DNA of 38,227 nt from a virus. Shown piece after piece: positions 10,065 to 31,053 of the stretch; position 1 is the first letter of the stretch; each line of letters starts with the position of its first letter. Below the pieces are notes generated by a model, which was not told the origin of the DNA, made no database searches, and saw only the letters and a program-made list of their open reading frames with translations. The DNA lies in IMG/VR virus record IMGVR_UViG_3300033150_001056, positions 1 to 38,227 of that record; one strand, written 5' to 3'. The translations under genes and the position numbers were made by a program.

Positions 10065-10109
10065 TATCTTGGCTGGTGGGCGGGAACTCCCCGCCTATCA
10101 GTTAAGATA
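10065..10109 (+). other. 20-bp RNA hairpin directly after a stop codon
   Basis: All 20 bases of 10065-10084 pair with 10090-10109 around the loop AACTC, with six GC pairs next to the loop and five G-U pairs. Every wobble has G on the 5' arm and U on the 3' arm of the + strand RNA, so the stem is continuous only as + strand RNA. There is no U-run, so it is not a typical terminator. It sits between the acidic protein and the zinc protein at 10126. Confidence 0.65.
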
Positions 10110-10125
10110 TTAACTCCAAAAATGT

Positions 10126-12069: not shown

Positions 12070-12635
12070 ATAAAGAAAAACTTTATAAAGCCGCCCAACT
12101 TGTAATTGAAGCATTAGGAGAAGACCCGAAAAGAGAAGGACTTTTAAGAACGCCTGAAAGAGTAGCAAGAGATTGGCCCGAAATGTTTGATGGTTATGGA
12201 AAAACTCCAGAAGAAGTTTTAGATAAGACTTTTGACGCAGAAGGATATGATGAGATGATAATAAGAGAGGAAATTGAAGTGCATTCTTTTTGCGAGCATC
12301 ATATTCTGCCGTTTAGAGGTTATGCTTGGGTAGGTTATATTCCAAAAGATAGAATTGTAGGTTTAGATAAAATTGACAAACTTGTGAAGATGTATGCTCA
12401 CAGGTTACAGAATCAGGAGAGATTAACTTATCAGATAGCAAAAGCAATCTGGGATATTTTAGAACCTTTAGGAGTAATGGTGGTTTTAAAATGTAAACAT
12501 GATTGTATGAGATTAAGAGGAGTTAGGTCAAAAGAGGGTCTAACAACTACCTCTGCTTGTTTTGGTGTTTTTAGAGAAGATGCTAAAGCAAGACAAGAGT
12601 TTTTAGATTTAATTAACAAAAGGTCGGACAAATAA
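12042..12635 (+). CDS. folE: FolE, GTP cyclohydrolase I
   Basis: Step 1 of the pathway, GTP to dihydroneopterin triphosphate. The signature HSFCEHHILPFRG (zinc Cys and His), the substrate loop VGLDKIDKLVKMYAHRLQNQ and the second zinc region CKHDCMRLRGVRSKEG are all present. Length 197 aa, normal. In phages a private FolE raises precursor supply when much DNA is modified. It overlaps queE by 28 nt. AAAGGTCG at 12619, inside its last codons, is 32 nt upstream of queC. Confidence 0.93.
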   Translation: MESRNKRSIDKEKLYKAAQLVIEALGEDPKREGLLRTPERVARDWPEMFDGYGKTPEEVLDKTFDAEGYDEMIIREEIEVHSFCEHHILPFRGYAWVGYIPKDRIVGLDKIDKLVKMYAHRLQNQERLTYQIAKAIWDILEPLGVMVVLKCKHDCMRLRGVRSKEGLTTTSACFGVFREDAKARQEFLDLINKRSDK

Positions 12636-12650
12636 CCAAAAAAAAGAGAT

Positions 12651-13307
12651 ATGAAAAAAGCGGTAGTTATACTATCTGGTGGTCTTGATTCTACTGTTCT
12701 TACTTATTGGCTGAAGAAGATTAAGAAATACAAGTTGTATGCCTTATCTTTTGACTATGGTCAGAGACATAAAAAAGAATTAGAAATGGCAAAAAAGACC
12801 TGTAAGAAATTAGGAATTCCTCATAAGGTAATAAAGTTGAATATCGGGGATATACTGACTAAATCTGCATTGATTGATAATAAAAAGAAACTGCCAGAGG
12901 AACATTATACTTACCAGAATCAGAAAATAACAGTTGTGCCAAATAGGAATATGATAATGTTGTCTCTTGCTGTTGCTTTTGCTGAAAATTTAGACATTAA
13001 AGAGGTTTATTACGCCGCGCACAAGAATGATTACGCTGTTTATCCTGATTGCAGACCAGAATTTGTGAAAGCATTATCAAAAGCAACGCAATTGGGAACA
13101 TATAATAAAGTGAAGGTGATTGCTCCTTTTGTTAACAAATACAAATGGCAACTTGTCAAGATGGGGTATAAAATAGGTGTTCCTTTTAAAGATACTTGGT
13201 CATGTTATAAGGGAGGCAAAAAAGCTTGTGGTAGATGTGCTACCTGTCGAGAACGATTAGAAGCATTTACCAAAAATAATTTAATTGACCCGACAGAATA
13301 CATATGA
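12651..13307 (+). CDS. queC: QueC, preQ0 synthase
   Basis: ATP-dependent conversion of carboxydeazaguanine to preQ0. The PP-loop SGGLDSTV (residues 9-16) binds ATP, and the C-terminal zinc site reads CYKGGKKACGRCATC. Length 218 aa, so there is no fused amidotransferase domain (unlike the Gat-QueC of phages carrying archaeosine-type DNA). The likely product is preQ0 itself. The stop TGA overlaps the dpdA start (ATGA). Confidence 0.92.
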   Translation: MKKAVVILSGGLDSTVLTYWLKKIKKYKLYALSFDYGQRHKKELEMAKKTCKKLGIPHKVIKLNIGDILTKSALIDNKKKLPEEHYTYQNQKITVVPNRNMIMLSLAVAFAENLDIKEVYYAAHKNDYAVYPDCRPEFVKALSKATQLGTYNKVKVIAPFVNKYKWQLVKMGYKIGVPFKDTWSCYKGGKKACGRCATCRERLEAFTKNNLIDPTEYI

Positions 13308-14059
13308 AGTTATACTTCGCTGGTGCAGCAAATCCAGCATCTTATAAGATTCTACGAGAGTACGATATTGACTTATTAGTAAGTTTCTATGATGTACAGA
13401 GAAAAGGTTTAGATTATATACATAGAAAAGTATTTCTGGATAGTGGCGCATTTAGTGCTTTTACACAAAATGTAAAGATTGATATCGATGATTATATCGC
13501 TTTTATCAAGAAGTATCGAGAGAAAATAGAAGTATATGCGAACTTAGATGTGATTGATAATTGGGAAGCAACTTTAAAGAATCAAAAATACATGGAACAA
13601 AAAGGATTGAAACCATTACCAGTGTTTCATTACGGAGAACCTCTGAATCTTCTAAAAAAATTAGTGAAGAAGTACGATTATATCGGACTTGGAGGTTTAG
13701 TGCCTGTTATTCATGAAAAGAAAAAATTAAAGAAATGGCTTGATAACTGTTTTACGATTATTAGGAATAGATGTAAAGTACATGGTTTCGGTATTCATGC
13801 TTTATGGATTCTTGAACGTTATCCTTTTTTCTCGATAGATGCAACAAGTTGGTTACAACCAAGTAGATTTGGACAAATTACGATTTTCAAATATGAAGGA
13901 GCTAAAACTTATAGTAAACAAGACAAGAATGAATTCGGTCTAAAATTAGCGAAGAAAGAACATGATTATTTACTAAAGAAGCAAATTGAGAATTTTATAC
14001 ATCTTCAAAGATATATAACTAAGCTTTGGGAAAAAAGAGGTGTAATATGGAAAGAATAA
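13304..14059 (+). CDS. dpdA: DpdA-like TGT-family enzyme, inserts preQ0 into DNA
   Basis: A short relative of tRNA-guanine transglycosylase of the phage DpdA type: VFLDSGAFSAF (Asp46 in the substrate-recognition loop), IDDYIAFIKKY, NLDVIDNWEATLKNQKYME, VFHYGEPLNLL, YIGLGGLVP, KVHGFGIHAL and the nucleophile-region motif SIDATSWLQPSRFG. These are landmarks of the TIM-barrel transglycosylase, which swaps guanine for preQ0. The lack of a tRNA-binding domain and the linkage to queC and terminase genes favour DNA as the substrate. Length 251 aa. It ends overlapping the next gene by 13 nt. Confidence 0.78.
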   Translation: MKLYFAGAANPASYKILREYDIDLLVSFYDVQRKGLDYIHRKVFLDSGAFSAFTQNVKIDIDDYIAFIKKYREKIEVYANLDVIDNWEATLKNQKYMEQKGLKPLPVFHYGEPLNLLKKLVKKYDYIGLGGLVPVIHEKKKLKKWLDNCFTIIRNRCKVHGFGIHALWILERYPFFSIDATSWLQPSRFGQITIFKYEGAKTYSKQDKNEFGLKLAKKEHDYLLKKQIENFIHLQRYITKLWEKRGVIWKE

Positions 14060-14690: not shown

Positions 14691-15137
14691 ATGCCAAAAA
14701 TCGAGAAAATTATTAAGAAGCAAGAATTTCAAGAATTTATAGAATGGATAAGCCTTCCTGCTTCTATAAGAGAGCCAAAAACTCAAAAAGAATTGGCAAG
14801 CAAACTTGGTATTGATAATGCTACTCTTTCTGATTGGAAAAAAGTAGAAGGATTTTGGGAAGAAGTAAAGAAAAGAAGAAAAAACTGGGTTCAAGAAAAA
14901 ATATCTAACATCCTTCTTGGAGTTTATGGAAAAGCACTAAAAGGAGATGTTAATGCGGCAAAACTTTTGTTAGAGTATGCTGGTGAATTTATTGAGAGAA
15001 AAGAATTCAAACATTATATTGAAGAAGAATTAAGCGAGGAAGAGAAGGAAGAAATTAAGAAAGCATTGGAATATGCCAGAAATCTACAACAAAATAATAG
15101 ACAATCAGAAACTCAGAAAGACGCTGGCAATAAATAG
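14691..15137 (+). CDS. terS: Terminase small subunit
   Basis: A helix-turn-helix TQKELASKLGIDNATLSDWKK near residues 30-50, followed by a helical oligomerisation part (YGKALKGDVNAAKLLLEYAG) and an acidic tail, fits small terminase subunits that bind the packaging site. The position just before the large subunit agrees. It overlaps that gene by 65 nt in another frame, an unusually long overlap for this genome. Confidence 0.8.
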   Translation: MPKIEKIIKKQEFQEFIEWISLPASIREPKTQKELASKLGIDNATLSDWKKVEGFWEEVKKRRKNWVQEKISNILLGVYGKALKGDVNAAKLLLEYAGEFIERKEFKHYIEEELSEEEKEEIKKALEYARNLQQNNRQSETQKDAGNK

Positions 15138-16563
15138 TTATTATTGGTTCTTTCACATTTATTTTGCCAAGTATATCAAGTATCCAACAGGCGATTTTCA
15201 AAAAGAATGGTGTCTTCTGCTTGAAGATTGGAGTAAAAAATTCATAGAAATAATAGGATTTAGAGGAAGTGCGAAGACTACCTACGCAATGCTTGGTTTT
15301 CCAATCTGGGCAATGATAACAGGAAAAAGTCATTATACATTGATTTTATCAGATACCTTTAACCAAGTTAAGGAGCATATTTACAATATAAAAAACGAAT
15401 TAGAAACAAATAAGTTGCTTATTAAAGATTTTGGACCTTTTGAGGGGCAAGAATTATGGACGGCTACAGATATTGTGATTCCGAAATATAATGCAAAGAT
15501 AAGTGCTCGTTCTACGGGGCAAAAAGTAAGAGGAATTCGTTTTAAACAATGGAGACCTCAACTTATTGTTGGAGATGATTTAGAAAATTCTGAAAGCGTA
15601 AGGACAAAAGAACAAAGAGACAAGACATTTAGGTGGTATATTGGAGAAGTAATACCTTGTGGAGATAAAGAGACAAAATATGTGCTTATTGGTAATTTAT
15701 TGCATACAGATTGTTTAATGGCAAAGATTAAGAAACAAATTCAAGAGGGATTAAGGGAAGGAGAAGTTAGAGAATATCCAATTATACAAGGCGATACTAT
15801 TACTTGGTTTGGTAAATTTCCTTCGATAGAAGAAGTAAAAAAGTTAGAGAAAGCGGTAAATGATAGTAGATTATGGCAGAGAGAATACTTGTTAAAATTA
15901 GTTCCTGAAGAAGGACAAGAAGTGAAAGAAGAATGGATTAGATACTATGAAAAACTTCCAGATGATAGTTTAATTATTCAGAAAGGTATTGGAGTTGATT
16001 TGGCGATAAGTAAAAAAGAAACTGCAGATTATACAGCAGCAGTAGCAGGTTTTATTACAAGAGAAGAAAAACCTTTTAAAATTTATATTTTACCTAATCC
16101 TTTAAATGAGAGATTGACAGGCTTTGAGACAACAGAAAGATTAAAATCTTTTAGTCTGGCGATTGGAGATAATATGCCAGCAACATTGTGGGTAGAAGAT
16201 GTTGCTTATCAACATATGCAAATAGAAGCATTAAAGAGAGAAGGATTGCCTGTATATGGAATTAAAACTACTACAGATAAGAGAGCAAGATTAAGAACAG
16301 TCGCAGCATATATTCAAAGCGGAAACATTGTTTTTCCAAAACGAGGATGTGAGGATTTAATAATGCAATTGGTAGGTTTTGGGATAGAAGCACACGATGA
16401 TTTAGTAGACGCTTTTGTTTATTTAGTGCAAGGACTTATTGGAAAACAAAGCGGGTTTTTTTCACTTATTCAGGAAGAAAAAGAAAAAATTAAAGAACAA
16501 AAAGATAGAAAAGGATTGGATTATTTTTATGAATTGTATCGCAAGCAGTATGGAGAGGATTAA
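15073..16563 (+). CDS. terL: Terminase large subunit
   Basis: The packaging motor: Walker A GFRGSAKTT (residues 62-70), Walker B LIVGDDLE, then the RNase H-like nuclease domain with GVDLAISKKETADYTA, WVEDVAYQ and the final HDDLVDAFVYL. Length 496 aa, full size. I kept the ATG at 15073 despite the 65-nt overlap with terS, because the next in-frame Met lies beyond the Walker A motif. Its stop codon is part of the palindrome at 16560-16589. Confidence 0.93.
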   Translation: MPEIYNKIIDNQKLRKTLAINSYYWFFHIYFAKYIKYPTGDFQKEWCLLLEDWSKKFIEIIGFRGSAKTTYAMLGFPIWAMITGKSHYTLILSDTFNQVKEHIYNIKNELETNKLLIKDFGPFEGQELWTATDIVIPKYNAKISARSTGQKVRGIRFKQWRPQLIVGDDLENSESVRTKEQRDKTFRWYIGEVIPCGDKETKYVLIGNLLHTDCLMAKIKKQIQEGLREGEVREYPIIQGDTITWFGKFPSIEEVKKLEKAVNDSRLWQREYLLKLVPEEGQEVKEEWIRYYEKLPDDSLIIQKGIGVDLAISKKETADYTAAVAGFITREEKPFKIYILPNPLNERLTGFETTERLKSFSLAIGDNMPATLWVEDVAYQHMQIEALKREGLPVYGIKTTTDKRARLRTVAAYIQSGNIVFPKRGCEDLIMQLVGFGIEAHDDLVDAFVYLVQGLIGKQSGFFSLIQEEKEKIKEQKDRKGLDYFYELYRKQYGED

Positions 16564-16855: not shown

Positions 16856-17866
16856 ATGCCAAAAAAGATTCTGATTACTGGCGGCTGTGGTTTTATTGGT
16901 CACCATATTGTAGAACACTTTTTAAAAAATTCGGATTGGGAGATTTTTGTTATAGATAAGTTAAACTACGCCTCAAGCGGTTTTGATAGATTAAGAGATA
17001 TTAGTGTTTTTGACGAAAAGAGGGTAAAGGTTTTTGCTACTGATTTACAGGAGCCAATTAGTGATGGACTGAAAAAAGAACTGGGAAAAGTGGATTATGT
17101 TCTGAATCTTGCCTCCGAGAGCCACGTTGACAGGTCGATTGAAAATCCCGTGCCATTTATTTTGAATAATGTCAAGTTGGTTTTGAATATGTTGGAATGG
17201 GCAAGAGAAATGAAACCTGTTAAGTTTATCCAATTTTCAACAGATGAGGTTTATGGACCAGCACCAGAGGGAGTAAACTATAAAGAAGGTTCAAGGCATA
17301 ATCCTTCTAATCCTTATTCGGCAAGTAAGGCGGCACAAGAGGATATTTGTAGAGCGTATGCGAATACTTATGGATTGAAGATTGTAATCACTAATACGAT
17401 GAATGTTATAGGAGAGAGACAGCATCCAGAAAAGTTTGTTCCTCTTGTTATTAGAAAGGTTTTGAACGGGGAAAAAGTTTATATCCACGCTGACCCGACC
17501 AAAACGAAGGCTGGTTCAAGATTTTATATCCACGCAAGAAATGTAGCACAGGCGCTCCATTTTATTCTGGAAAAGACAGATGAGTATTTGTGTAAAGAAG
17601 ACGCTGTAAAAGGCGTCTTTAACATTGTTGGAGAAAAAGAAATAGACAACCTAACACTTGCCAAGTTTATTGCTGATGTTGTTGACAAACCGCTTAAATA
17701 CGAATTGGTAGATTTTCATTCAAGCAGACCGGGACACGATTTGAGATATGCTTTAGATGGAAGCAAGCTCAAAAATTACGGATTTGATTATCCTAAAACA
17801 TTTGAAGAAAGTTTAGAAAAAACAATTAAGTGGTATCTCAAAAATCCAAAGTGGTTGGAAATATGA
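16856..17866 (+). CDS. NDP-sugar 4,6-dehydratase (RmlB-like)
   Basis: An extended short-chain dehydrogenase: ILITGGCGFIGHH binds NAD, FSTDEVYG carries the Thr-Asp-Glu set typical of dTDP-glucose 4,6-dehydratases, and YSASK is the Tyr-x3-Lys catalytic pair. LASESHVDRSI is another RmlB landmark. Length 336 aa, normal. It would give a 4-keto-6-deoxy sugar nucleotide, the first step toward deoxysugars such as rhamnose, for the glycosyltransferases that follow. AAAGGTCG at 16824 begins 32 nt upstream of the ATG. Confidence 0.85.
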   Translation: MPKKILITGGCGFIGHHIVEHFLKNSDWEIFVIDKLNYASSGFDRLRDISVFDEKRVKVFATDLQEPISDGLKKELGKVDYVLNLASESHVDRSIENPVPFILNNVKLVLNMLEWAREMKPVKFIQFSTDEVYGPAPEGVNYKEGSRHNPSNPYSASKAAQEDICRAYANTYGLKIVITNTMNVIGERQHPEKFVPLVIRKVLNGEKVYIHADPTKTKAGSRFYIHARNVAQALHFILEKTDEYLCKEDAVKGVFNIVGEKEIDNLTLAKFIADVVDKPLKYELVDFHSSRPGHDLRYALDGSKLKNYGFDYPKTFEESLEKTIKWYLKNPKWLEI

Positions 17867-18795
17867 TAAGTGTTGTTATTAGCATTTTAAACCAATTTAA
17901 AATTGCTGGACTTGCAATTGAGAAACTGATTGAAAATGCGGTTGATAGGATAGAACTTATTCTTATTGATGATGGAAGCGATTATCTTGTTTCCCAATGG
18001 ATTGGATTAAAAGATTTTTTCTACCAATTAGAGGATGTGAAAATTTTAAGGAACGATTATCCGACAGGGAGTTATTATACGATGAAGAAAGGAAACGAAT
18101 TAGCAGAAGGAGATATTGTTGCCTTCTTTCATTCGGATTTGCTTATCTGGGAGAAGGGCTGGGATAGAAGGATTAGAAATGTTTTTGAGGAAAACGAAAA
18201 GGTGGGACTTATTGGATTTATCGGCTCAACCGAGATAGATAGTTGGGGAGGTAGAGGAATAGGGACGATTTCGAATTTTCAAGGTAGAGAATTGGAAGGA
18301 TATAAAGGGAGTGTGGCTGAGATGCACGGAGATAGGGTAACTGGTTTCAGATTAGGAGCGGTAGTAGATGGATGTGCAATGATTTTTAGGAAGAAGTATT
18401 TAGACGAGATTGGTTTTAGAAACGATTTTCCGCCTCATCATTTCTACGATAGATTGCTAAGTTGTCAAGTTTTAGAAAGAGGATATCAAGTTGGAATTCT
18501 TGGAATTGCTTGTGACCATATTTCAGGACAAGTAGTTAATAGCGAAAAGAAATATCATGAGATGGTTGGAAATTGGATGAAAGAGAGATATGGAAGCCCA
18601 GAGGAATGGATGCAAAGGTTTAGCGATTGGTGGGTAAATGATTTGAATCCAAGTAAGGGCATAGTGCCGAATAACAATGATGCTTGGGTGTATATGGAGG
18701 CAGAAAGACAATTTCTAACAGAATACCGAGACCAAAAACATTTTATTCCTTTAAAGGTCGAACCTGATGGAAGAATTATTCATTTATCCTCTTAA
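17863..18795 (+). CDS. Family 2-like glycosyltransferase, 310 aa
   Basis: The N-terminus ISVVISILNQF, the IELILIDDGSDY segment and AFFHSDLLIWEKGW (metal-binding His-Ser-Asp in place of D-x-D) fit the GT-A fold of family 2. A later DGCAMIFRKKYLDEIGFR part is typical of the acceptor side. The start at 17863 overlaps the dehydratase stop (ATGA). Linked with sugar genes, it probably transfers a sugar to a virion or host-surface target. AAAGGTCG (18753) lies near its end. Confidence 0.75.
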   Translation: MISVVISILNQFKIAGLAIEKLIENAVDRIELILIDDGSDYLVSQWIGLKDFFYQLEDVKILRNDYPTGSYYTMKKGNELAEGDIVAFFHSDLLIWEKGWDRRIRNVFEENEKVGLIGFIGSTEIDSWGGRGIGTISNFQGRELEGYKGSVAEMHGDRVTGFRLGAVVDGCAMIFRKKYLDEIGFRNDFPPHHFYDRLLSCQVLERGYQVGILGIACDHISGQVVNSEKKYHEMVGNWMKERYGSPEEWMQRFSDWWVNDLNPSKGIVPNNNDAWVYMEAERQFLTEYRDQKHFIPLKVEPDGRIIHLSS

Positions 18796-19025
18796 TGGAT
18801 TTAGAAAAGGAAATGTCTGAATGGCAAAGAGTTTGGAATTTAGAGGCTGAAATTGCTTATTTAAGAAGAAAAAGTATTGGAGCAAAAAATGAAATCCAGA
18901 GTGCCAACTACGAAAAAGTTATACTTGCAAGACGAAAGGAATTGGAGACCACAAAGGATTTTGTAAAATTCTTAACCGATTACATAAAGCAATGCACAGA
19001 AGCGACGAACCAAAAAAAGGATTAG
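18795..19025 (+). CDS. Small coiled-coil protein, 76 aa
   Basis: All-helical and strongly charged (LEKEMSEWQRVWNLEAEIAY and onward), probably a coiled coil. It starts at a TAATG overlap with the glycosyltransferase and overlaps the next gene by 34 nt. AAAGGTCG (18753) is 42 nt upstream. Function unknown; possibly an adaptor for the sugar cluster. Confidence 0.5.
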   Translation: MDLEKEMSEWQRVWNLEAEIAYLRRKSIGAKNEIQSANYEKVILARRKELETTKDFVKFLTDYIKQCTEATNQKKD

Positions 19026-19417
19026 AACAGAAAGGATTAAAAGTTGCTGTCTCTGGCTACTTTGACCCAATCCATATTGGACATATTAGACATTTTAAAG
19101 AAGCGAAAAAACTGGCTGGAGAAAATGGAAAACTGATTGTTATTTTAAACAATGACAAGCAGGCGATTTTAAAAAAAGGATTTGGTATTAGATATGTGGA
19201 CGAGGTCTTTATTAGCATTGATGAAGATAGGACGGTGTGTAAATCTTTGGAAGCTGTAAAGCCAGACATTTTTGCCAAAGGTGGAGATAGAACGAATAAG
19301 AATACTCCAGAACAAGAGGTTTGTAAGAGGCTTGGAATAAAAGTAGTTTTTGGGGTTGGCGGAGGGAAAATTCAATCAAGTTCTTGGTTAATTGGGAAAA
19401 TAAAAACAAATGGCTAA
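18992..19417 (+). CDS. HIGH-motif nucleotidyltransferase (HldE C-domain/TagD-like)
   Basis: VAVSGYFDPIHIGHIRHFKE shows the HxGH (HIGH) signature of cytidylyl/adenylyltransferases. KGGDRT, EVCKRLGIKVVFG and GKIQSSSWLI match the heptose-1-phosphate adenylyltransferase (HldE C-domain) subgroup better than CTP:glycerol-3-phosphate enzymes. It would activate a sugar or polyol phosphate to a nucleotide form. Length 141 aa. It probably feeds the neighbouring glycosyltransferases. Confidence 0.75.
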   Translation: MHRSDEPKKGLEQKGLKVAVSGYFDPIHIGHIRHFKEAKKLAGENGKLIVILNNDKQAILKKGFGIRYVDEVFISIDEDRTVCKSLEAVKPDIFAKGGDRTNKNTPEQEVCKRLGIKVVFGVGGGKIQSSSWLIGKIKTNG

Positions 19418-19952
19418 TCTGCAGATTCATGAACAATATATAGAATATGTTAAGGAGGCAGTCGCTTTGGTTGGGGAGGAGGCGAAGATTTTAAAAGCAG
19501 ATTGTTTTAACGAAGCAAGGAATGTTTTTCCTGTAGTTCCTTTATATAAAAATGCGATTTGCGTGGAGATAAATCAGGATTTAGTAAATGAAGCAAAAGA
19601 AAGAGGAATAAATGCTGTTTTGGGAGATATTCGTAATTTATTGTTTGAGGACGAATCTTTTGATTTAGTTGTTGATTTATCCACAATTGACCATATTTTG
19701 GAAGTAGAAAAAGTAATCAAGGAGTATAACAGGGTATTGAGACCAAAAGGAATTTTATTGATAGTTTGCTGGTTTAACACAACTGGAAAAATAATAGAAA
19801 CTCGTGATGAATACGGAATGCAGTATTTCTTTCTTTTAGATGATTTCAAAAAGGTATTGTTGAAATTTTTTGATATTATTAACGAGGAGCCGTTACCTCA
19901 AACCAAGAAAAATGAGATATTCTTGTATAAGTTTTTATGTAGAAAAAAATGA
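19410..19952 (+). CDS. Class I SAM-dependent methyltransferase, 180 aa
   Basis: It has the Rossmann order of type-11 methyltransferases: AICVEINQDLVNEAKERG (post-I acidic loop), INAVLGDIRNLLFEDESFDL (motifs II/III), IDHILEVEKVIKEYNRVLRP and GILLIVCWF. The glycine-rich motif I is degraded (AKILKADCFNEAR instead of D-x-G-x-G), so activity is uncertain. A sugar-modifying role is inferred from context. It overlaps both neighbours. Confidence 0.65.
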   Translation: MANLQIHEQYIEYVKEAVALVGEEAKILKADCFNEARNVFPVVPLYKNAICVEINQDLVNEAKERGINAVLGDIRNLLFEDESFDLVVDLSTIDHILEVEKVIKEYNRVLRPKGILLIVCWFNTTGKIIETRDEYGMQYFFLLDDFKKVLLKFFDIINEEPLPQTKKNEIFLYKFLCRKK

Positions 19953-20512
19953 CTTGGGAATATCTACAGACAGAAGAATTAGATTTGAGATTAAAGATTA
20001 TAGCAGCATATCTTAAGGGCAAAACAAAAGATAGAGTGATTGTTGATTTGGATTGTGGAACAGCAAGGTTAATTAAGTTCTTGGAAAAGAATTTCAAACT
20101 TTACTATGGGAACGATGTTAATGAAGAATTTATTGAAATAGCAAGAGGATACGGCATTAAAAATAGCGAATTTGTTGTTTTGCCAGATAATAGAGTTACA
20201 GAAAAGATAAATGAAATAGATATCTTGCTTATGTTGGGATACGGAGCAGGAGAATATGTCAGGAATGATGTAGAATCAGAAACATTGACAGATTCTTTTA
20301 AAAATCTGGTGGTGAAGTTTTCGCCGAAGATAGTAATTGTTGAAGGAATTGATTTGTGGGAAAGAAACTATAAGGCGTATTCTCAGATTAAAAAGTTTCT
20401 AAAAGAGAAAGGGTATCGTTTAGATTACGAGACATATCTTCAGATTGGAGATGTTCAAGATGAGGTGTATAGAAGAAGAATTTTCTTTTTTCAAAAAGAA
20501 TGGAGAAATTAA
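19949..20512 (+). CDS. Second SAM-dependent methyltransferase, 187 aa
   Basis: Motif I VDLDCGTARLIKFLE, followed by YYGNDVNEEFIEIARGYG and IDILLMLGYGAGEYV, fits a class I methyltransferase fold. It follows the previous one with a 4-nt overlap, but the two are not close copies. It probably methylates a sugar or another small group on the glycan made by this cluster; the substrate is unknown. Confidence 0.6.
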   Translation: MTWEYLQTEELDLRLKIIAAYLKGKTKDRVIVDLDCGTARLIKFLEKNFKLYYGNDVNEEFIEIARGYGIKNSEFVVLPDNRVTEKINEIDILLMLGYGAGEYVRNDVESETLTDSFKNLVVKFSPKIVIVEGIDLWERNYKAYSQIKKFLKEKGYRLDYETYLQIGDVQDEVYRRRIFFFQKEWRN

Positions 20513-21267
20513 AGGAAAAATTAAGACAACATAAAATTAAGCTGGTTGTTCTTGATAGCGATGGCGTGACTGTGCCAAGAGGGACGAGGATATTTGAACA
20601 GGAACTTGCAGATAGTTATTTTATAACGATGGAGACAAAGAGAATTAAAAGGGGGTTGGCTGATAAAATCAATCAGTTAAAGAAGAAAATGTGGGTTTGT
20701 ATTTCTTCTGGCAGGGGCTTGCTTTATTTACAATCAATGTATGACAGAATTATTGGCGGGAAATTGATTCTGACTGCTGAAAATGGAAATGTATCATTGT
20801 GGAGAGGATATATTGTTCAGCATTTCTTTTATGACCAGAGATATTTTGAGAAACTGGCAAAGATTAGGAACGAAGTGAAGAACCTGTCTATTAAAGGATT
20901 TGAGCCAAAGCAATTTATTTTGACAATTCACGCAGAGACCGAGATTAAGAAAGTGTATGAGATTGTAAAGAGGTTTGATAGAAAAAAGGAACTGAAAACG
21001 ATGTGGAATGGTGAGGCGTTTGATATTCAGAGGAAAGATGTTTCGAAGGGGTTAGCAATTGAAAAGATTGCAACTGAATTAGGAATTGAGAAACAAGAGA
21101 TTGTTGCAATCGGAGATAGGGTTAATGATAAAGAATTGATAGAAGTGGCTGGGATTGGGATTTCTGCGGATAGCAAGAAATTAAAAGCAGATTATTATTT
21201 GGAGCCAGACCAAGACAAACTACCTGCAGAAAAATTAGTTGATTTACTTTTAGAAATCTATGGTTAG
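20500..21267 (+). CDS. HAD-family phosphatase (type IIB-like)
   Basis: The catalytic motif LVVLDSDGVTVPRG (first Asp as nucleophile), CISSGRGLLYL (motif II), the conserved Lys in DVSKGLAIEKIATELG and the metal-binding IGDRVNDKELI (motif IV) are all in order. A cap domain lies at about residues 85-175. Length 255 aa. Relatives remove phosphate from sugar phosphates; between nucleotidyl- and glycosyltransferases this could clear a sugar-phosphate intermediate. Confidence 0.75.
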   Translation: MEKLKEKLRQHKIKLVVLDSDGVTVPRGTRIFEQELADSYFITMETKRIKRGLADKINQLKKKMWVCISSGRGLLYLQSMYDRIIGGKLILTAENGNVSLWRGYIVQHFFYDQRYFEKLAKIRNEVKNLSIKGFEPKQFILTIHAETEIKKVYEIVKRFDRKKELKTMWNGEAFDIQRKDVSKGLAIEKIATELGIEKQEIVAIGDRVNDKELIEVAGIGISADSKKLKADYYLEPDQDKLPAEKLVDLLLEIYG

Positions 21268-22162
21268 AAAACAAAATGTTATTGCTACCAATTCAGGAAC
21301 TGTTACCACTTCCACTTATCAATGGAAACCGCCAGAACAGAGTATTTTTACTCCCTCGATAGATGCAAAAGTGTTGATAGTAATGCCTGTTATAAATCTT
21401 TGGAGAGAATATACGGAGGCTTGTATTTCAAGTATCAGAAGTAAGAAAAATAGTCTTGCGTTGTTGATTATTGATAATGGCTCGGCAGATGTAACGAAAG
21501 AGGAAGCAGAAAGATTAGCCGAAGAAAGGAGTTGGATTATTTATCACAGGAATGAAGAAAATTGGGGGTGTTCAAAGAGTTGGAATTTTGGAATAAGAAA
21601 GGGGTTTGAGGAAATGGGGGCAGATTATGTGATGATAATTAACAATGATATTTTGTTGCACGAAAACACGATAGATAGACTGGTTGAGAGATTTCAAAAA
21701 GGAGATGAAGATTTGGTAATGGTAACGGCTTTGAATATCAAGGAAGAATGTGATTTTCCAGAAGCAATTTTCTTGAAAGACGACAGGGAAAAAGAAGTGG
21801 TGCCTGAATCAGAAAACCCAGATTTTAGTTGCTTTATGATAAACAAAAAATTGGTTGAGATGGTGGGGGAGTTTGATGAGGGTTTTTCGCCAGCGTATTT
21901 CGAGGACAACGATATGCATTACAGGATTAAGTTGGCAGGATTAAAAGCAATTTGTTATCCGCCTGCAATTTATTACCATTACGGCTCCAGAACGCAGAAT
22001 GACCCAAGATACCCGATGGGGTTGGTTGATGGTTATAAGTTTGAGAGAAATCGAATGTATTTTGTAGATAAATGGGGAGGACCGCCGGGGCAAGAAATTT
22101 TTTTAACTCCTTTTAATGATTCAACTAAAAACATAAAATGGACAAAACAAATGGAAAAATAA
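21260..22162 (+). CDS. Family 2 glycosyltransferase, 300 aa
   Basis: KVLIVMPVINLWREY, LALLIIDNGSAD, RNEENWGCSKSWNFGIR and YVMIINNDILLHENT (metal-binding Asn-Asp) define the GT-A core; AYFEDNDMHYRIKLAG is the typical E-D-x-D acceptor region of this family. The first 35 residues are low-complexity (Thr/Ser/Pro), perhaps a tether. It overlaps the phosphatase by 8 nt and the next glycosyltransferase by 25 nt. Confidence 0.8.
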   Translation: MVRKQNVIATNSGTVTTSTYQWKPPEQSIFTPSIDAKVLIVMPVINLWREYTEACISSIRSKKNSLALLIIDNGSADVTKEEAERLAEERSWIIYHRNEENWGCSKSWNFGIRKGFEEMGADYVMIINNDILLHENTIDRLVERFQKGDEDLVMVTALNIKEECDFPEAIFLKDDREKEVVPESENPDFSCFMINKKLVEMVGEFDEGFSPAYFEDNDMHYRIKLAGLKAICYPPAIYYHYGSRTQNDPRYPMGLVDGYKFERNRMYFVDKWGGPPGQEIFLTPFNDSTKNIKWTKQMEK

Positions 22163-23616
22163 AAGTTTTGGTTTTAGCAGATTCTCCTACCTGTGCCACT
22201 GGTTTCGCTCAGGTGGCAAGAAATATCATTAGAACCTTATGGGAAACTGGGAAATATGAGTTTGATTGGGTAGGAATAAATTTCGATGGTAGTTATTACG
22301 ATAGAGAGAAATATCCTTATAGAATTTACCCTGCTGTAAATGCTCTTGTTCCTTCTGCAGAGTATCACGATTTGTTCGGAAGGCAGTTGTTTTTAGATAT
22401 GCTTGAAAAAGGAGATTATGATTTAGTGTGGATGGTTCAAGATACTTTTATCATTGCTTCTATTGGAAGAAAAATTTTATCGCTCAATAAGAAAAAGCCC
22501 GCGGAGAAAAAATTTAAATGGATTTTCTATTATCCGATTGATGCAAAACCGAAAAGAGATTGGATTGAAAATTCTGTTTTGCTTGCTGATTTCCCTGTTG
22601 CTTATACGAAATATGCTTATAAAGAAAGCATTGAGGCTTATGATAGAGATGACGAAGAAGACAAAATTAGAAGAGAGATTTTACAAAAGAAATTAAAAGT
22701 AATCTATCACGGAGTTGATACTGAAATCTTTAAACCATTACCAAACAAAAAAGAATTGAAGGAAAAATGGTTTGGGAAGGAACTTGCCGATAAGTTTATT
22801 TTTATGAACATCAATAGAAATCAGCCAAGAAAGGATATGTTTAGAAGTTTGTTGGCTTGTAAGAAATTGTTAAAAAGAAGAAAGGAGAAGGGTAGAAATG
22901 ATGTCTATTTCTATTTTCATTGTCATTACGCAGACCAGTCTGGGTTAAATCTCGTTGAGATGGCAAAACAGATAAATTTTATCGCAGGGAAGGAGTGGGG
23001 ATTTCCAAATCCGAGATTGTTTCAACCGAACAAAGGATTTAGTGTTGAAGAGGTTAATGAATTGTATAATGCGGTTGATTGTGTTTTCTCTACAACTCTT
23101 GGAGAAGGTTTTGGGCTTTCAAATATAGAAGCAATGGCAACAAAAACGCCAGTAATTTTTCCTGATAATACTTGTTTAAGAGAATTGATAGAAGGAAAAG
23201 GATTGTTGGTTAATAGCGGTAAAGAATTGATAGTTGTTCCACACGACAACGACAGAGTGAGACCGCTTACAGATGTAGATGATTTAGTTAATAAAATGGA
23301 ATGGCTTTTGGAGAATAAAGATAGCGATATTGTTAAGGGAATGGTTGAGAAGGGATATAAATGGGCTGTAGGTTTGGATTGGAAAGGAGAAAAGGTCGGC
23401 GGAGAATGGATAAAACTTTTTGAAATCGCTTATAAGGAATTATTAAAAGACAGAAAAGCGGCGAAAATAGAACAAGAAACAGATTTTTCAAAACTCAAGA
23501 GAAACGATATATGTCCTGTTTGTTCTATTTTAAAAGGAGAGAAAGTTAAGTTTAAAAATTGTATTCATTATGAAACGGCAAGACAAGGAAAAATCCTCAA
23601 AATTTTCTGGGACTAA
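22138..23616 (+). CDS. GT-B glycosyltransferase (family 4-like) with a cysteine-rich tail, 492 aa
   Basis: The N-terminal Rossmann start KVLVLADSPTCATGFAQVAR and the donor-binding region TTLGEGFGLSNIEAMATKTP (the E-x7-E pattern) identify a GT-B retaining enzyme. The middle FIFMNINRNQPRKDMFRSLL is the linker typical of family 4. The last 30 residues add CPVCSILKGEKVKFKNCIHYE, a possible zinc knuckle not usual in the family. The 3' end overlaps the next zinc protein by 47 nt. Confidence 0.75.
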   Translation: MDKTNGKIKVLVLADSPTCATGFAQVARNIIRTLWETGKYEFDWVGINFDGSYYDREKYPYRIYPAVNALVPSAEYHDLFGRQLFLDMLEKGDYDLVWMVQDTFIIASIGRKILSLNKKKPAEKKFKWIFYYPIDAKPKRDWIENSVLLADFPVAYTKYAYKESIEAYDRDDEEDKIRREILQKKLKVIYHGVDTEIFKPLPNKKELKEKWFGKELADKFIFMNINRNQPRKDMFRSLLACKKLLKRRKEKGRNDVYFYFHCHYADQSGLNLVEMAKQINFIAGKEWGFPNPRLFQPNKGFSVEEVNELYNAVDCVFSTTLGEGFGLSNIEAMATKTPVIFPDNTCLRELIEGKGLLVNSGKELIVVPHDNDRVRPLTDVDDLVNKMEWLLENKDSDIVKGMVEKGYKWAVGLDWKGEKVGGEWIKLFEIAYKELLKDRKAAKIEQETDFSKLKRNDICPVCSILKGEKVKFKNCIHYETARQGKILKIFWD

Positions 23617-23845
23617 AAAACAGATTTGTCCTGTTTGCGGTAAGGAATGGAAATATAGATTGAAAACTTGGACAGATGAAGACGGCTGGCATTGTTTACA
23701 CGATGATGAAATCCATTCCAGTTTTCCTTTGTATTTTACTGGGAGAGAAAAAAAAATGGCTTCCAATCTCCCCAAAAACAAAGTGCTTGTTAAGGGGAGC
23801 GATGGGATAACAAGAATTTGTGAAGTTAAAAAGAAGAAAAAATGA
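23570..23845 (+). CDS. Small zinc protein, 91 aa
   Basis: CPVCGKEWKYR and the HCLHDDEIH region give Cys and His ligands for one metal. The C-terminal 30 residues (MASNLPKNKVLVKGSDGI, then a KKKKK end) form a basic tail, with an internal ATG at 23756 that could start a shorter product. The large overlap (47 nt) with the glycosyltransferase supports coupling. Function unknown. Confidence 0.55.
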   Translation: MKRQDKEKSSKFSGTKKQICPVCGKEWKYRLKTWTDEDGWHCLHDDEIHSSFPLYFTGREKKMASNLPKNKVLVKGSDGITRICEVKKKKK

Positions 23846-24042
23846 AAAAAGAAAAAAAAGATTTCAGGTGTTATAGGTGCAACAGATTATTGGCAAAATA
23901 TACTGACAGAGAATACGAGGTGATTAGTAGTAATAGACAGATGATTTCCATCAGTAGAGATGGTTGCTTTAGTATTACTTGTAAATGTGGAGCAATTACG
24001 ACATTGAGCGGAAATTTAACAATTGTGAGGAGGGGGTCTTGA
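23842..24042 (+). CDS. Com-like zinc-finger protein, 66 aa
   Basis: DFRCYRCNRLLAKYTDREYE followed by FSITCKCGAITTL resembles the phage Com family (RCxxCNRLLA ... I-x-CxCG), which in Mu binds an mRNA stem to allow translation of the mom DNA-modification gene. Two Cys pairs, about 30 residues apart, make the zinc site. The stop TGA overlaps the -35 box of the promoter at 24039-24066, so the next transcription unit starts here. It is a plausible partner of the structured RNA downstream (inference). Confidence 0.6.
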   Translation: MKKEKKDFRCYRCNRLLAKYTDREYEVISSNRQMISISRDGCFSITCKCGAITTLSGNLTIVRRGS

Positions 24043-24066
24043 CAAATTTTTTTAAAGGTCTATAAT
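24039..24066 (+). promoter_or_regulatory. Near-consensus sigma70 promoter TTGACA-16-TATAAT
   Basis: A perfect -35 (24039-24044) and a perfect -10 (24061-24066) are 16 nt apart, making it the strongest promoter I see in the window. AAAGGTC (24054-24060) fills the end of the spacer against the -10 box. The expected start is near 24073, at the first base of the RNA helix described next. Confidence 0.85.
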
Positions 24067-24072
24067 GGAGTA

Positions 24073-24170
24073 AGATAACTGACCACCTTTTGGTGGAGAC
24101 CGCTTACGAAGACGGCTCAGTTATCTACGAGACCTGTTTTTTGGGTCTTTTAGATAATTGAGCCGTTTTT
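24073..24170 (+). ncRNA. Structured RNA: three-way junction leader that competes with a terminator
   Basis: P1 pairs AGATAACTGA (24073-24082) with TCAGTTATCT (24117-24126), 10 perfect base pairs. It encloses P2, CCACC-TTTT-GGTGG (24083-24096), and P3, CCGCTT-ACG-AAGACGG (24100-24115, one bulged A), with linkers of 0, 3 and 1 nt. The 3' strand of P1 and the base of P3 are also the 5' arm of the terminator at 24114-24176, so the two folds exclude each other. This is the logic of a transcription attenuator or riboswitch, but I recognise no known class. It may also be a stand-alone RNA of about 95 nt. Confidence 0.7.
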
Positions 24171-24176
24171 GTTTTT
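24114..24176 (+). terminator. Intrinsic terminator abutting the portal start codon
   Basis: Bases 24114-24127 pair with 24151-24164 (14 bp, one G-U). The top continues, after a 2x2 internal loop, into AGACC/GGTCT (24130-24134 with 24144-24148). The stem is followed by GTTTTTGTTTTT (24165-24176), immediately before the portal ATG at 24177. Termination here would end the transcript at the start codon, so read-through is needed for portal and downstream head genes unless another promoter reads in. Confidence 0.75.
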
Positions 24177-25856
24177 ATGGCATTAAGAGACAGATTTATT
24201 CAATTTCTATTAGGAGATAAGTTAAACCAATTGGAAAACGCCTTAAAAGAAAAAGACGAAATTATTTTAAGGCAAAAAGAGGAATTGGAAAAAAGAGACC
24301 TTCCAATGCATTTTGCAGTTCCGAGACAAGAGGAAAGATTATTCGGGCACGATATTGGGAAATATAGAAAAATAGATTTCAGGGTTTTGAGGGAATTGTC
24401 TGAAAGGTATGATGTCGCAAGGGCTTGTATTAACAGAAGAAAACGGCAGGTTGAGGCAGTAGAGTGGTCTATTCAACCGATAAATCCAAAAGAAGGAGGA
24501 AAATACGAAAAACAAATAAAAGAACTGACCAAGTTTTTTAAGGCGCCGGGTGGAAAATATGCGAGGTTTAGAGAGTTTGTTAATGAAATTGTAGAGGATT
24601 TACTTGTTTTGGATGCTGCAGCAATTTGGAAAGATAAAACGATTGGAGGAAAGCTAACAAAATTGGTAACGGTAGATGCGGCAACAATTAGATTAAGAGT
24701 AATGGAAGATGGGAGCGACCCAGAACCACCAGAACCAGCGTTTGAACAATGGATTAAAGGAAGGAAGGTTGCTCAATTCACAACTGAGGAAATGGATTAT
24801 TTGATGTTGAATCCAAGAAGTAATACTCCTTATGGTTTTGCACCTTTAGAGGCTTTAATACTTGGGGTTGATGCTGCTTTGAGGTCTCAACTTTATAACC
24901 TTTCAATGCTTACCGAAGGAAATATACCAGAAGGATTTTTTGCTCTACCAGAAAGTTGGACACCAGACCAAATAAAAGAATTTCAGGAGTATTTTGATGC
25001 TTTAATTTCTGGTAATCCGAGATTTCAGCAAAGGATTAAATTTGTTCCCGGTGGTAAAGGGGTTGGCTATATTGCAGCCAAGAAACCACAGGATATGAGA
25101 TTTTTGGAATATGAGAAATGGCTTCTCTTAAAAACTTGTGCTTTGTTTGATGTTCCGCCTGAAGAAATTGGTTTTACAGAGGAAATGTCAAGAGCAACAG
25201 CCCAAGTTCAATTCAAAGTAGCCCTGAGGTCTGGACTACTGCCAATTTTACAAGTGCTAAAAGAATTTTTTGATAAAGTTATTCAAGAAGATTTCGGGTA
25301 TGAGGAATTGGAATGGGTATGGACTGGATTGGATGAGAAGGACGAAGAAAGAGAGGCAAAAATAGCAAAGTTAATGATTCCAATGGGAGCAATTAGTGTT
25401 GATGAATGGAGAGCTATGAATGATTTACCGCCTATCGGATTAGGTCATTATATTATGACTGGACAGGGACCGATTCTTGTTGAGGATTTGTTAAGTGGTA
25501 AAAACAAAAAACCAGAAAAAGAAGAGAAGGTTCTTGAGTTAGGAGATGTTGAAAAATTGGAAAAAGAAATAGAGGAGATAGAAAAATGGAGAACAAAAGC
25601 ACTGAACGATGTTAGAAAAAAGAGAAAGTTTAGACCCTTTCAAAGCAATTACATTGAAGAAAACATTAAAAAAATTATTGAGAGCGAATTGTTATTTGCA
25701 AAAAGTAAAGAGGAAGTAAAAAGTATTTTTGATACCATTTTACAAGGATTAAGAAAAGAAAAGATAATGCTTGAGGCAAAATTATTAAAAGAAGATTTGG
25801 ATAATACCTTACAAGAATATGAACACAAAGTTGCTAAAGTTGAGACAAAGGATTGA
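24177..25856 (+). CDS. Portal protein (HK97-like)
   Basis: The body from about residue 55 fits phage portals: YDVARACINRRKRQVEAVEW, a core with YLMLNPRSNTPYGFAPLEAL (N-P-R-S and Y-G-x-x-P), KFVPGGKGVGY, and ALFDVPPEEIGFTEEMSRAT near residue 330, where many portals have a V-P-x-x-x-G segment. The first 45 residues are a predicted coiled coil (LNQLENALKEKDEIILRQKE). Length 559 aa. The ATG directly follows the terminator U-run with no Shine-Dalgarno, so expression probably depends on how the leader RNA folds. It overlaps the next gene by 38 nt. Confidence 0.85.
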   Translation: MALRDRFIQFLLGDKLNQLENALKEKDEIILRQKEELEKRDLPMHFAVPRQEERLFGHDIGKYRKIDFRVLRELSERYDVARACINRRKRQVEAVEWSIQPINPKEGGKYEKQIKELTKFFKAPGGKYARFREFVNEIVEDLLVLDAAAIWKDKTIGGKLTKLVTVDAATIRLRVMEDGSDPEPPEPAFEQWIKGRKVAQFTTEEMDYLMLNPRSNTPYGFAPLEALILGVDAALRSQLYNLSMLTEGNIPEGFFALPESWTPDQIKEFQEYFDALISGNPRFQQRIKFVPGGKGVGYIAAKKPQDMRFLEYEKWLLLKTCALFDVPPEEIGFTEEMSRATAQVQFKVALRSGLLPILQVLKEFFDKVIQEDFGYEELEWVWTGLDEKDEEREAKIAKLMIPMGAISVDEWRAMNDLPPIGLGHYIMTGQGPILVEDLLSGKNKKPEKEEKVLELGDVEKLEKEIEEIEKWRTKALNDVRKKRKFRPFQSNYIEENIKKIIESELLFAKSKEEVKSIFDTILQGLRKEKIMLEAKLLKEDLDNTLQEYEHKVAKVETKD

Positions 25857-28829: not shown

Positions 28830-29849
28830 ATGGAAACACAAAAACTTGTAGATGCTGAAACTGTTAAAACATTATTGAGCAACAAGGATACGCTTGAGAT
28901 GGTTGCTGAGGCGATTAGGAAGGCTACGGTCACGACTGGCACTTACACTTTCTCTCCAAGCACTCGTTCCATCTTTGTTGCGGAGAATTTGGACCCAGTT
29001 GTCAAATTGATTGTCCCTACAGCTACTCCGATTAGGAGTTTATTGCCAAGAAAAAAAGGTAGAGGACAGGCGGCGGCTTGGAAGAAAATGACCTCCAAGC
29101 TTGACCCATCCGCCACTGGCACTGGGAAAACTCCTTTCTTCGCAGATGGTGGAACTCCGCAGGAAACTACCCACACATTTTCGGTAGTAACTGCGGCTTA
29201 CAAATTACTTGGAAGAAAGTTAAGTGTTGGTTTGTTACACGTTGCCGCTTCAAAAGATTATTTACCTGTTGAGGACGAATTGACTCGAATTAAAACTCTT
29301 GAAGTAATGTTGGCAGAGGAATGGGCAATTATCAACGCTGATAGTGATGCTGATAGCAATGCCTTTGATGGCTTGCTAAAACAGATTACTACTAACAGCG
29401 GAACTGCCTCTCTGTTAACTGCTTCAGGAGTTGGAGTGTATGATGAGACAATCTTCAAAGCAGGAGGTGTTGCTACCCACTTGTTCGTTAGCCCAAGACA
29501 AAGCAGGGCATTGAGCGATGAGTTGCAAGCATCTGGTTCAATTCAGAGAATTATTGTCTCTGACCAAGGTGCTGCAACCGCCAACTTGAGGGTTTCCTCA
29601 ATTGTAAGCCCTGCAACTGGACAGACAATTGATATTGTTGTGTCCAGATATATGGGTGCTTGGGCTATCTTGGGTGCAATTAAATCTCCTGCTGGAGAGA
29701 ACTATGTAGAGATGGAAGACTTGATTCCTCTTGTAAAACTTGATGTTCCAGTGACTACTTTTGCAAAAGATAGCTTTGTGGTTGAGGCAACCGTCTTGAA
29801 ACTGATTGCAGAGCCATACTTCTATAAGATTGGCGGATTGGCTACATAA
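28830..29849 (+). CDS. Major capsid protein (HK97 fold)
   Basis: Position after protease/scaffold, length 339 aa and sequence fit: TRSIFVAENLDPVVKLIVPT and PIRSLLPRKKGRGQAAAWKK in the N-arm and E-loop area, VTAAYKLLGRKLSV, EEWAIINADSDADSNAFDGL and a strand-rich P/A domain ending VPVTTFAKDSFVVEATVLKL. Codon use is less AT-biased than in neighbouring genes, as expected for the most expressed protein. AAAGGTC copies lie at 28785 and 28814 (45 and 16 nt upstream). No separate delta domain is obvious. Confidence 0.82.
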   Translation: METQKLVDAETVKTLLSNKDTLEMVAEAIRKATVTTGTYTFSPSTRSIFVAENLDPVVKLIVPTATPIRSLLPRKKGRGQAAAWKKMTSKLDPSATGTGKTPFFADGGTPQETTHTFSVVTAAYKLLGRKLSVGLLHVAASKDYLPVEDELTRIKTLEVMLAEEWAIINADSDADSNAFDGLLKQITTNSGTASLLTASGVGVYDETIFKAGGVATHLFVSPRQSRALSDELQASGSIQRIIVSDQGAATANLRVSSIVSPATGQTIDIVVSRYMGAWAILGAIKSPAGENYVEMEDLIPLVKLDVPVTTFAKDSFVVEATVLKLIAEPYFYKIGGLAT

Positions 29850-29871
29850 AATTAACAAGTTTTCCTTGTGG

Positions 29872-29933
29872 CTTGCCTACCGTCTCCAACCCGTTGCCCT
29901 CCGAGGGATTGGAGCGGTAGGAGGGCAGGTAAG
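29872..29933 (+). other. Predicted pseudoknotted RNA between the capsid and glycosyltransferase genes
   Basis: CTTGCC (29872-29877) pairs with GGTAAG (29928-29933). Inside, TACCG (29878-29882) pairs with CGGTA (29915-29919), and CTCCAA (29884-29889) with TTGGAG (29909-29914). The loop contains GCCCTCC (29896-29902), exactly complementary to GGAGGGC (29920-29926) outside the stem, giving a pseudoknot; a local CCCT-CCG-AGGG hairpin is the alternative. The region is GC-rich in an AT-rich genome. The GGAGG it can sequester lies about 17 nt before the ATG at 29941, which suggests translational control. Confidence 0.6.
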
Positions 29934-29940
29934 TAAAGAT

Positions 29941-31053
29941 ATGAGAATACTGAACATTGTCAACAATTACGATAGTTTTAATGGGTGTTTGGCTTATAGG
30001 GTTTTATGGCCGTTGAGAGAATTAGGAAAAAGAGGATATGAAGCAAAAATGATAATCGTTAGTAGGAGTTCTAAAATAGACGAAGAGACAATAGATTGGT
30101 GTGATGTTGTAGTGTTTAATTGGGGGTATGATGAAAATAAAATTGGAATGGTCAAAGAGATATTTTTGAGAGCGAAGTTAAAAGGAAAAGGAATAATCTA
30201 TCAGATGGACGATGATTTAGAAGGAGTAATGGAGGGACACCCGATAAAAGAAAAAATAGATGATGTAAGAGATATAATCAGATTTCTGGCACAGGAGAGC
30301 GATGCAATGGTTGTAACAACGGAAGATTTGAAAGAAATTGTCAAGAGGAGATATGGAAGTAAGAATATAGAAGTTGTGCCAAATGCCCTGCCCCTTGAAA
30401 AATTTAACGAAAGAGAAAGAAAAAGTGAAAGATTAAAAATTGGCTGGAGTGGTGGTCATACTCATTTAAGAGATTTATTGATTGTTACGGATGTAATTCA
30501 GGAATTACAAAAAAAGTATGATTTTGATTTCGTTGTTCAGGGAATTACCCTTCAGCCATTAGATAGTTACGCCTTTGCGTTGGAGGATATAAGGAAGAAA
30601 GGATTGTTGGAGAAGAGAAGAGAGAATTATGCGGTGGCTGTTAGAAAATTATTGGAAGAGTGTAAGAAAATAAAGAATTTTGAGCATATTCCCTTTTATC
30701 CAGTTGAGATGTTCCCAGAAATTTTGAGAAAGGCGGATTTAGATATAGGAATTTGCCCATTGGAGGAGCATAGTTTTAACGAAGGAAAGTCATGTGTTAA
30801 GTTTTACGAATATGCGGCAGTCGGAACAGTGACTATTGCGTCAGATGTAATTCCTTACAAGAGAGAGGTGAATTATAGAGCAAAGAATACAAAAGAGGAT
30901 TGGTATGAGAAATTGGAGAAATTGATTGTTGATAATGAGTTTAGAGAGAGGATATTAGAAGAACAGAGAAAATTTGTCTTTGAAAACCGAGACCTTAAAA
31001 AGGTCGTAAGTGATTGGGAAAATGTTTTCAAAAAATATGTTCAACAAACTTAA
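29941..31053 (+). CDS. GT-B-like glycosyltransferase in the structural module, 370 aa
   Basis: I chose the ATG at 29941 (MRILNIVNNYDSFNGCLAYR); an earlier in-frame start at 29806 would overlap the capsid gene and run through the structured RNA. IIYQMDDDLEGV, VVPNALPLEKFNE, LKIGWSGGHTHLRDL and CVKFYEYAAVGTVTIASDV fit GT-B transferases of family 4 type. A sugar transferase between capsid and tail genes is unusual and suggests that virion proteins are glycosylated. AAAGGTCG (30999) sits in a short GACCTT-AAA-AAGGTC inverted repeat near its end. Confidence 0.7.
   Translation: MRILNIVNNYDSFNGCLAYRVLWPLRELGKRGYEAKMIIVSRSSKIDEETIDWCDVVVFNWGYDENKIGMVKEIFLRAKLKGKGIIYQMDDDLEGVMEGHPIKEKIDDVRDIIRFLAQESDAMVVTTEDLKEIVKRRYGSKNIEVVPNALPLEKFNERERKSERLKIGWSGGHTHLRDLLIVTDVIQELQKKYDFDFVVQGITLQPLDSYAFALEDIRKKGLLEKRRENYAVAVRKLLEECKKIKNFEHIPFYPVEMFPEILRKADLDIGICPLEEHSFNEGKSCVKFYEYAAVGTVTIASDVIPYKREVNYRAKNTKEDWYEKLEKLIVDNEFRERILEEQRKFVFENRDLKKVVSDWENVFKKYVQQT

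Follow-up and report, generated by a model that had tools for sequence, protein, structure and literature searches.

The packaging RNA of phage phi29 is a three-way-junction RNA encoded by a phage. In protein-stabilised antitermination, small hairpins that are bound by a protein exclude an intrinsic terminator located before the controlled operon (PMC3369936). In lambdoid phages, the strong promoter pR' is followed by a short leader and the terminator tR' before the late genes, and this terminator is opened by the phage factor Q (PMC6606751). The put RNA of phage HK022 consists of two hairpins near a phage promoter and suppresses termination (PMC9378689). The Com protein of phage Mu is described as acting on translation. 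By binding to the loop of a hairpin, it opens a helix at the start codon of mom; the motif obtained by selection is CC(N)2-3GAG within a loop, in which the GA is essential (PMC6483171).

The element described here lies directly before the portal gene of a virus whose record of 38,227 nt (34.8% G+C) was analysed as a whole; this entire stretch is called the window, and all coordinates refer to it. The features of the locus are compiled in Table 1.

Table 1. Features of the portal-upstream region, with window coordinates and supporting evidence
Feature	Position	Strand	Evidence
Com-like zinc-ribbon ORF (66 aa, CxxCxRLL...CKCG), candidate effector	23842..24042	+	ORF; PF10122, phrog_6417 and Com profile matches
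Sigma-70-type promoter TTGACA-16-TATAAT	24039..24066	+	Sole perfect match in window; TTGACA at the same place in 10/10 copies
Leader RNA (putative switch), predicted transcript from about 24073 to U-tract	24073..24176	+	Covariance hit 24073-24126, 36.6 bits; fold z -12.1 (24073-24176)
P1 5' strand AGATAACTGA	24073..24082	+	9/10 P1 pairs with both-side changes in relatives; 91% of cells paired
Hairpin P2 CCACC-TTTT-GGTGG	24083..24096	+	Covariation in 5/5 modelled pairs; 100% of cells paired
Hairpin P3 G(A)CCG-[CTTACGAAGA]-CGGC	24098..24116	+	100% of cells paired; both-side changes in 2/4 pairs
P1 3' strand TCAGTTATCT, common to terminator 5' arm	24117..24126	+	Three-strand covariation
Terminator 5' arm (holds P3 3' strand and P1 3' strand)	24112..24127	+	Fold -35.1 kcal/mol; conserved, covarying
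Terminator inner hairpin	24129..24149	+	Folding
Terminator 3' arm, near copy of P1 5' strand	24151..24166	+	Folding; conserved, covarying
U-tract TTTTTGTTTTT, ends at portal start codon	24166..24176	+	Sequence; directly before portal ATG in 10/10 copies
Portal gene, first of head operon, presumed target	24177..25856	+	PF04860 E 1.6e-30; phrog_2662 portal

Gene order and genomic setting

The large terminase gene (15073-16563, Terminase_6C) is followed by about 7 kb of sugar and glycosyltransferase genes ending with a GT4 glycosyltransferase (22138-23616), a gene for a 91-aa zinc protein (23570-23845), the Com-like ORF, the RNA element, and the portal gene, after which a MuF-like protein, a prohead protease and an SU10-like capsid protein are encoded. 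The sugar genes in the terminase-portal interval (16856-23616) comprise an epimerase, a cytidylyltransferase, a HAD phosphatase, and several glycosyltransferases, and a further glycosyltransferase (29806-31053) is encoded directly after the capsid gene. All close relatives have kept the 91-aa zinc protein (ICPVCGK...) upstream of the portal, even where the Com-like gene and the RNA are missing. Shine-Dalgarno motifs are almost absent before the genes of the window, genome-wide, despite the sigma-70 consensus promoter described below; since the motif is nearly missing across the phage genes, its lack before the portal gene is nothing special.

A complete-looking 7-deazaguanine pathway is encoded at 11025-14059. 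It consists of QueD (11025-11378), a QueE-like radical SAM protein (11371-12069), the GTP cyclohydrolase FolE (12042-12635), and QueC (12651-13307), and is followed by a weak match to the transglycosylase DpdA (13304-14059, E 0.0007, far under the cut-off). These genes suggest that the phage DNA may be modified. Near the left end (167-216) lies a perfect inverted repeat of 17 bp, and a very strong hairpin is located at about 10050-10110 (-46 kcal/mol, scanned as 10021-10120); in both cases no clear U-tract follows. A 20-kb contig from another sample encodes a capsid protein that is 100% identical to that of the window (L105:22-1038); this contig starts at the capsid gene, so that the portal region lies outside it. 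The genome bin that contains one relative, L086, comprises about 0.7 Mb, and the listed relatives of this bin have 0.3-1.0 Mb. The size of this bin hints at very small bacteria as hosts, and the phage contig may be misbinned.

Promoter and start of the predicted leader

The promoter before the portal gene had been described as the only perfect TTGACA...TATAAT pair, and this was confirmed by a scan of both strands of the window. Its -35 element (24039-24044) and -10 element (24061-24066) are separated by a 16-nt spacer and give the only 12/12 match, with 0.04 such matches expected by chance per shuffled window. Transcription is predicted to start at 24073, the first base of P1, 7 nt past the -10 element, and the RNA from this promoter would have a length of about 100 nt. 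P1 starts about 7-10 nt past the -10 box in most of the ten copies known.

Two mutually exclusive folds

In the first fold, a perfect 10-bp helix, P1, encloses the hairpins P2 and P3 to form a three-way junction with linkers of 0, 1, and 0 nt. The consensus of P3 is R(A)CYG-loop-CRGY, in which the bulged A (24099) is invariant, and the P3 loop reads C..GA in nine of the ten copies, the exception being L007 with UUAAA. P2 varies among the copies in sequence, length, and loop. While the helix of the preliminary description (24073-24082/24117-24126) held, the two hairpins that it was said to enclose are supported across relatives and ambiguous in the window alone, where the junction (-21.2 kcal/mol) nearly ties with an alternative interior fold (-21.8 kcal/mol). 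Because these two folds differ by 0.6 kcal/mol in single-sequence folding, P3 rests on the relatives. The alternative, which was favoured in the first minimum-energy fold, was set aside, as the comparison with relatives decides for the junction.

The second fold is a terminator hairpin that reuses the 3' strands of P3 and P1. A stem of 14 bp (24114-24127/24151-24164) had been noted correctly; folded alone, it extends to 16 bp (24112-24127/24151-24166) with an additional 8-bp inner stem and reaches -35.1 kcal/mol with a z-score of -10.3. The U-tract ends at the portal ATG (24177), as had been noted for the window, and it lies within a few nucleotides of this codon in all ten copies. Among the 100-nt segments scanned on both strands, none folds as strongly as this region (-52.6 kcal/mol vs a mean of -12.9, sd 6.3). 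In simulated growing transcripts, the junction forms first and the terminator after its 3' arm is made, and the terminator is more stable than the junction in all seven copies tested. By eye, the shared strand looked similar to boxA (GCTC); this was dropped, as these bases vary among the relatives.

A competing helix pair of equal length occurs in 10 of 1000 shuffles when the window sequence only is considered, and the mutual exclusion alone is only modestly surprising. Because chance competing helices reach this frequency in one sequence, the comparative evidence is decisive.

Conservation in related phages

Portal scans of viral contigs led to L004, L005, L006, and L078 (60-63% portal identity), L007 (53%), and L008 (49%). 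A capsid scan added L109 and L126, and a glycosyltransferase scan added L129, which is identical to L130 over the region. Together with the window, these nine further sequences make up ten distinct copies, every one of which lies directly before the portal ATG. A covariance model was built from L005, L006, L078, L007, and L008, with the window left out. It recovered all five unused copies, namely L004 (47.8 bits), L126 (41.7), the window (36.6), L109 (35.9), and L129 (33.1), and its match in the window covers exactly 24073-24126. The sole other hit over about 1.1 Mb in all had an E-value of 4.5. The model found nothing in the L086 genome bin and 196 surrounding genomes, a weak result as phages may be missing from bins. 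A scan with a pattern of the core DNA gave 37 matches, of which L004 and L006 are real; the others were ascribed to chance and are mostly located in G+C-rich contigs without promoter or structure.

For the junction, 95.2% of 187 cells are paired in the ten sequences, and 16 of 19 pairs have changed on both sides; this pairing score was reached in none of 500 shuffles, and sliding the partners abolishes the pairing. For the base of the terminator, nine sequences were compared; 88.9% of the cells are paired, and 7 of 10 pairs have changed on both sides, the arms having been joined and the register chosen by hand. The preliminary description had proposed a covariance model of homologous portal-upstream regions as a check and had named homologues lacking paired substitutions in either P1 or the terminator stem as evidence against the element. 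Compensatory changes are present in both competing stems, and the element survived this comparison.

Both folds were compared position by position in a table, made by hand, that lists for ten positions the junction partner, the shared base, and the terminator partner. The middle pair of P3 reads C-G-C across the three strands in five phages, U-A-U in three (L007, L008, L129), and U-G-C in two, and another position reads U-A-U, A-U-A, and G-C-G among the copies. Altogether, 15 cells are changed in all three strands with both folds kept, compared to 1.6 expected, a number reached in none of 2000 shuffles that leave shared ancestry in. Such changes, which preserve two helices at once, would be hard to explain without selection on both folds. 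The mutual exclusion of helix and terminator claimed for the window was retained in this comparison, as the ten sequences keep both helices.

The Rfam scan suggested in the preliminary description gave no family at cut-off in Rfam 15, and the matches below threshold, mostly microRNA families that fit any long hairpin, were judged to be chance. A search of the phage database gave no DNA similar to the element. A text search of the literature found no description of such an element, a weak absence as the search covered open-licence papers only. The element is rated as a new RNA family and as a new form of protein-controlled antitermination.

The Com-like zinc-ribbon protein

The Com-like gene directly upstream, which had been overlooked in the preliminary description, ends with its stop codon within the -35 box. 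The window ORF matches PF10122 (Com) with 16.0 bits and E 0.008, under the cut-off of 22.9, and four of nine members match at E <=0.1. Matches to phrog_6417 ('translational regulator') have E-values of 0.0006-0.001. A comparison of the Com-like profile with six Com proteins resulted in a probability of 95.5%, whereas the control, the other zinc protein of the same phages, gave 3%. The N-terminal knuckle and flank of the Com family (RCxxCxRLLxx...EI) are present, with RC..C.RLL and E invariant in nine members. The second knuckle is CKCG (CxC) in all copies versus CPRC (CxxC) in Com and is located about 20 residues further on. The Com-like protein had no match in the phage database, a scan with its alignment returned already known contigs only, and its AlphaFold model (pLDDT 74) had no usable PDB match. 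In the six Com phages compared, com precedes its presumed client, mom or an adenine methylase. In Moraxella phage Mcat3, an unannotated com (L093:2501-2743) lies before a D12-type adenine methylase.

The Com-like gene is found in all ten phages with the RNA and in none of three close relatives without it. These relatives, L112 (60% portal identity), L009 and L086 (49%), have kept the glycosyltransferase, the other zinc gene, and the portal, and have neither the ORF nor the RNA. In a portal tree calculated with L129 left out, they are scattered, corresponding to four changes, three of which are forced by well-supported branches. This co-loss points to a module rather than to a mechanism and is weak evidence for joint action, because neighbours can go in a single deletion. 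In L112 (2840-2885), the gene order is the same without Com-like gene, promoter, RNA, and terminator, and a short ORF (MIKSEEVK) may be a remnant of com.

P3 is proposed as the binding site of the Com-like protein, which is the best candidate and the likely effector. In nine copies, the P3 loop takes the form C-N(2-7)-GA, which agrees in part with the hairpin-loop target of Mu Com; its closing pair is G-C, not C-G as in the Mu site, and its length differs. The score for PF10122 below cut-off, the CxC knuckle, the differences in closing pair and length from the Mu site, and the UUAAA loop of L007 speak against the Com-like protein as effector. As an alternative explanation, the GA of the loop could be kept through pairing with the first U residues in the terminator.

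Proposed mechanism and alternative explanations

As in attenuators, the locus contains two mutually exclusive RNA structures, one of which is an intrinsic terminator, and both are conserved. It probably functions as a promoter-proximal transcription attenuator that gates the head operon and is opened by a factor holding P3 and the junction, for which the Com-like protein would be the foremost candidate. The promoter sequence, the two folds, their joint conservation, and the linkage to the Com-like gene were established by the analysis; transcription, termination, the default state, and binding of the Com-like protein are inferred as follows. The near-consensus promoter would give rise to a leader RNA, the emerging P1, P2, and P3 of which would fold as a three-way junction. 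On arrival of the 3' arm, the more stable terminator hairpin would capture the strand formed by the 3' parts of P3 and P1, and polymerase would halt at the U-tract, either ahead of the portal start codon or on reaching it, so that the default state would be off. A trans-acting factor on P3 and the junction, most likely the zinc-ribbon protein from the directly upstream gene, would occupy the shared strand, block the terminator, and allow transcription of the head genes. The rearrangement would also free the RNA beside the portal AUG, and translation may be gated as well. It is conceivable, and somewhat short of an even chance, that a zinc protein of the Com family has shifted from the translation of DNA-modification genes to the control of termination and switches a whole virion-assembly operon via a junction RNA.

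The structural evidence for a switch stands without the Com-like protein, and the same attenuator might respond to another effector, such as a different phage or host protein, a small molecule bound at the junction, for which P2 and P3 with their tiny linkers could make a pocket, or the speed of polymerase, with the Com-like protein engaged elsewhere. This explanation is rather unlikely in view of the co-occurrence of Com-like gene and RNA (10/10 vs 0/3), the kinship of the protein to an RNA-binding family, and the C..GA loop; moreover, no riboswitch model matches the element. That Com is known for translation and not for termination (PMC6483171) argues against the proposed attenuator and for a translational switch as in Mu com-mom, in which the hairpin would mainly block or free translation of the portal gene and termination would be incomplete or minor. 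The end of the hairpin about 10 nt upstream of the AUG is consistent with this, as is the near absence of Shine-Dalgarno motifs, by which local openness may decide initiation. However, each copy consists of a long stem and an immediate U-tract, the signature of an intrinsic terminator, and a dedicated promoter is present, which makes a mainly translational switch improbable.

The preliminary description had left the choice between a switch gating the head operon and a stand-alone or phi29-like packaging RNA. The switch is favoured by the promoter, helices, and position kept in ten phages; the other part of this choice is disfavoured. A stand-alone small RNA of about 100 nt that acts in trans, in packaging or on host or phage mRNAs, would account for a promoter starting at P1 and for a terminator of its own, and the location next to the portal gene agrees with the phi29 packaging RNA, likewise a three-way junction. 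Yet a 5' domain in competition with the RNA's own terminator would be superfluous in an RNA that acts in trans, and this competition is kept by changes in three strands. The RNA is also missing in relatives of the same portal family, lacks conservation outside P3 and hence a constant segment for target pairing, and has no Rfam match, so that we regard this explanation as very improbable. Packaging RNA, a DNA packaging site, and ends of a mobile element were rejected because the changes compensate at the RNA level in three strands.

Comparison with known systems

The attenuator proposed here resembles the antitermination systems of the ANTAR proteins NasR and EutV, with their dual hairpin, and of BglG/LicT with the RAT sequence in that leader hairpins and a terminator are mutually exclusive. 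It differs from these systems, which serve host metabolism and depend on ANTAR or CAT domains, in its closed three-way junction, its association with a phage head operon, and its zinc-ribbon gene. The adjacent protein is a zinc ribbon, no gene for an ANTAR or CAT protein was seen next to the element, and the bglG-cis-reg model scored 19.9 bits compared to a cut-off of 80. With the phi29 packaging RNA, the element shares the three-way junction and the adjoining portal gene, whereas it has no Rfam match, an ordinary Terminase_6C, relatives of the same portal family in which the RNA is missing, and a conserved overlap with a terminator.

The Mu com-mom leader is similar in combining a small zinc protein, a partly matching hairpin loop (C-N-GA), and a competing helix where the gene after com begins (PMC6483171). 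In contrast to Mu, the target here is the portal and not a DNA-modification gene, a promoter and an intrinsic terminator lie between com and target, and the knuckle reads CKCG. If the proposed mechanism is true, the role of Com proteins, described as activating the translation of a DNA-modification gene, would be extended to antitermination. Protein and RNA would form a compact pair that is testable in a laboratory strain, and the switch would open one of the few ways to study gene control in phages whose bacterial hosts are uncultured.

In its position and layout before late genes, the element corresponds to lambdoid pR'-tR'. Unlike Q, which binds DNA and modifies polymerase, the RNA fold itself would exclude the terminator. 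By the tests made, the element is not a member of the ANTAR/LicT or lambda late-terminator systems. As judged from its description, HK022 put likewise has two hairpins close to a phage promoter; put needs no overlap with a terminator and acts over kilobases through polymerase, whereas the overlap is conserved here. If true, the element would represent a new class among the switches of phage late genes and have an RNA family of its own, and this switch would be unlike lambda Q or put in that one strand picks which of two covarying folds forms at the start codon of the portal gene.
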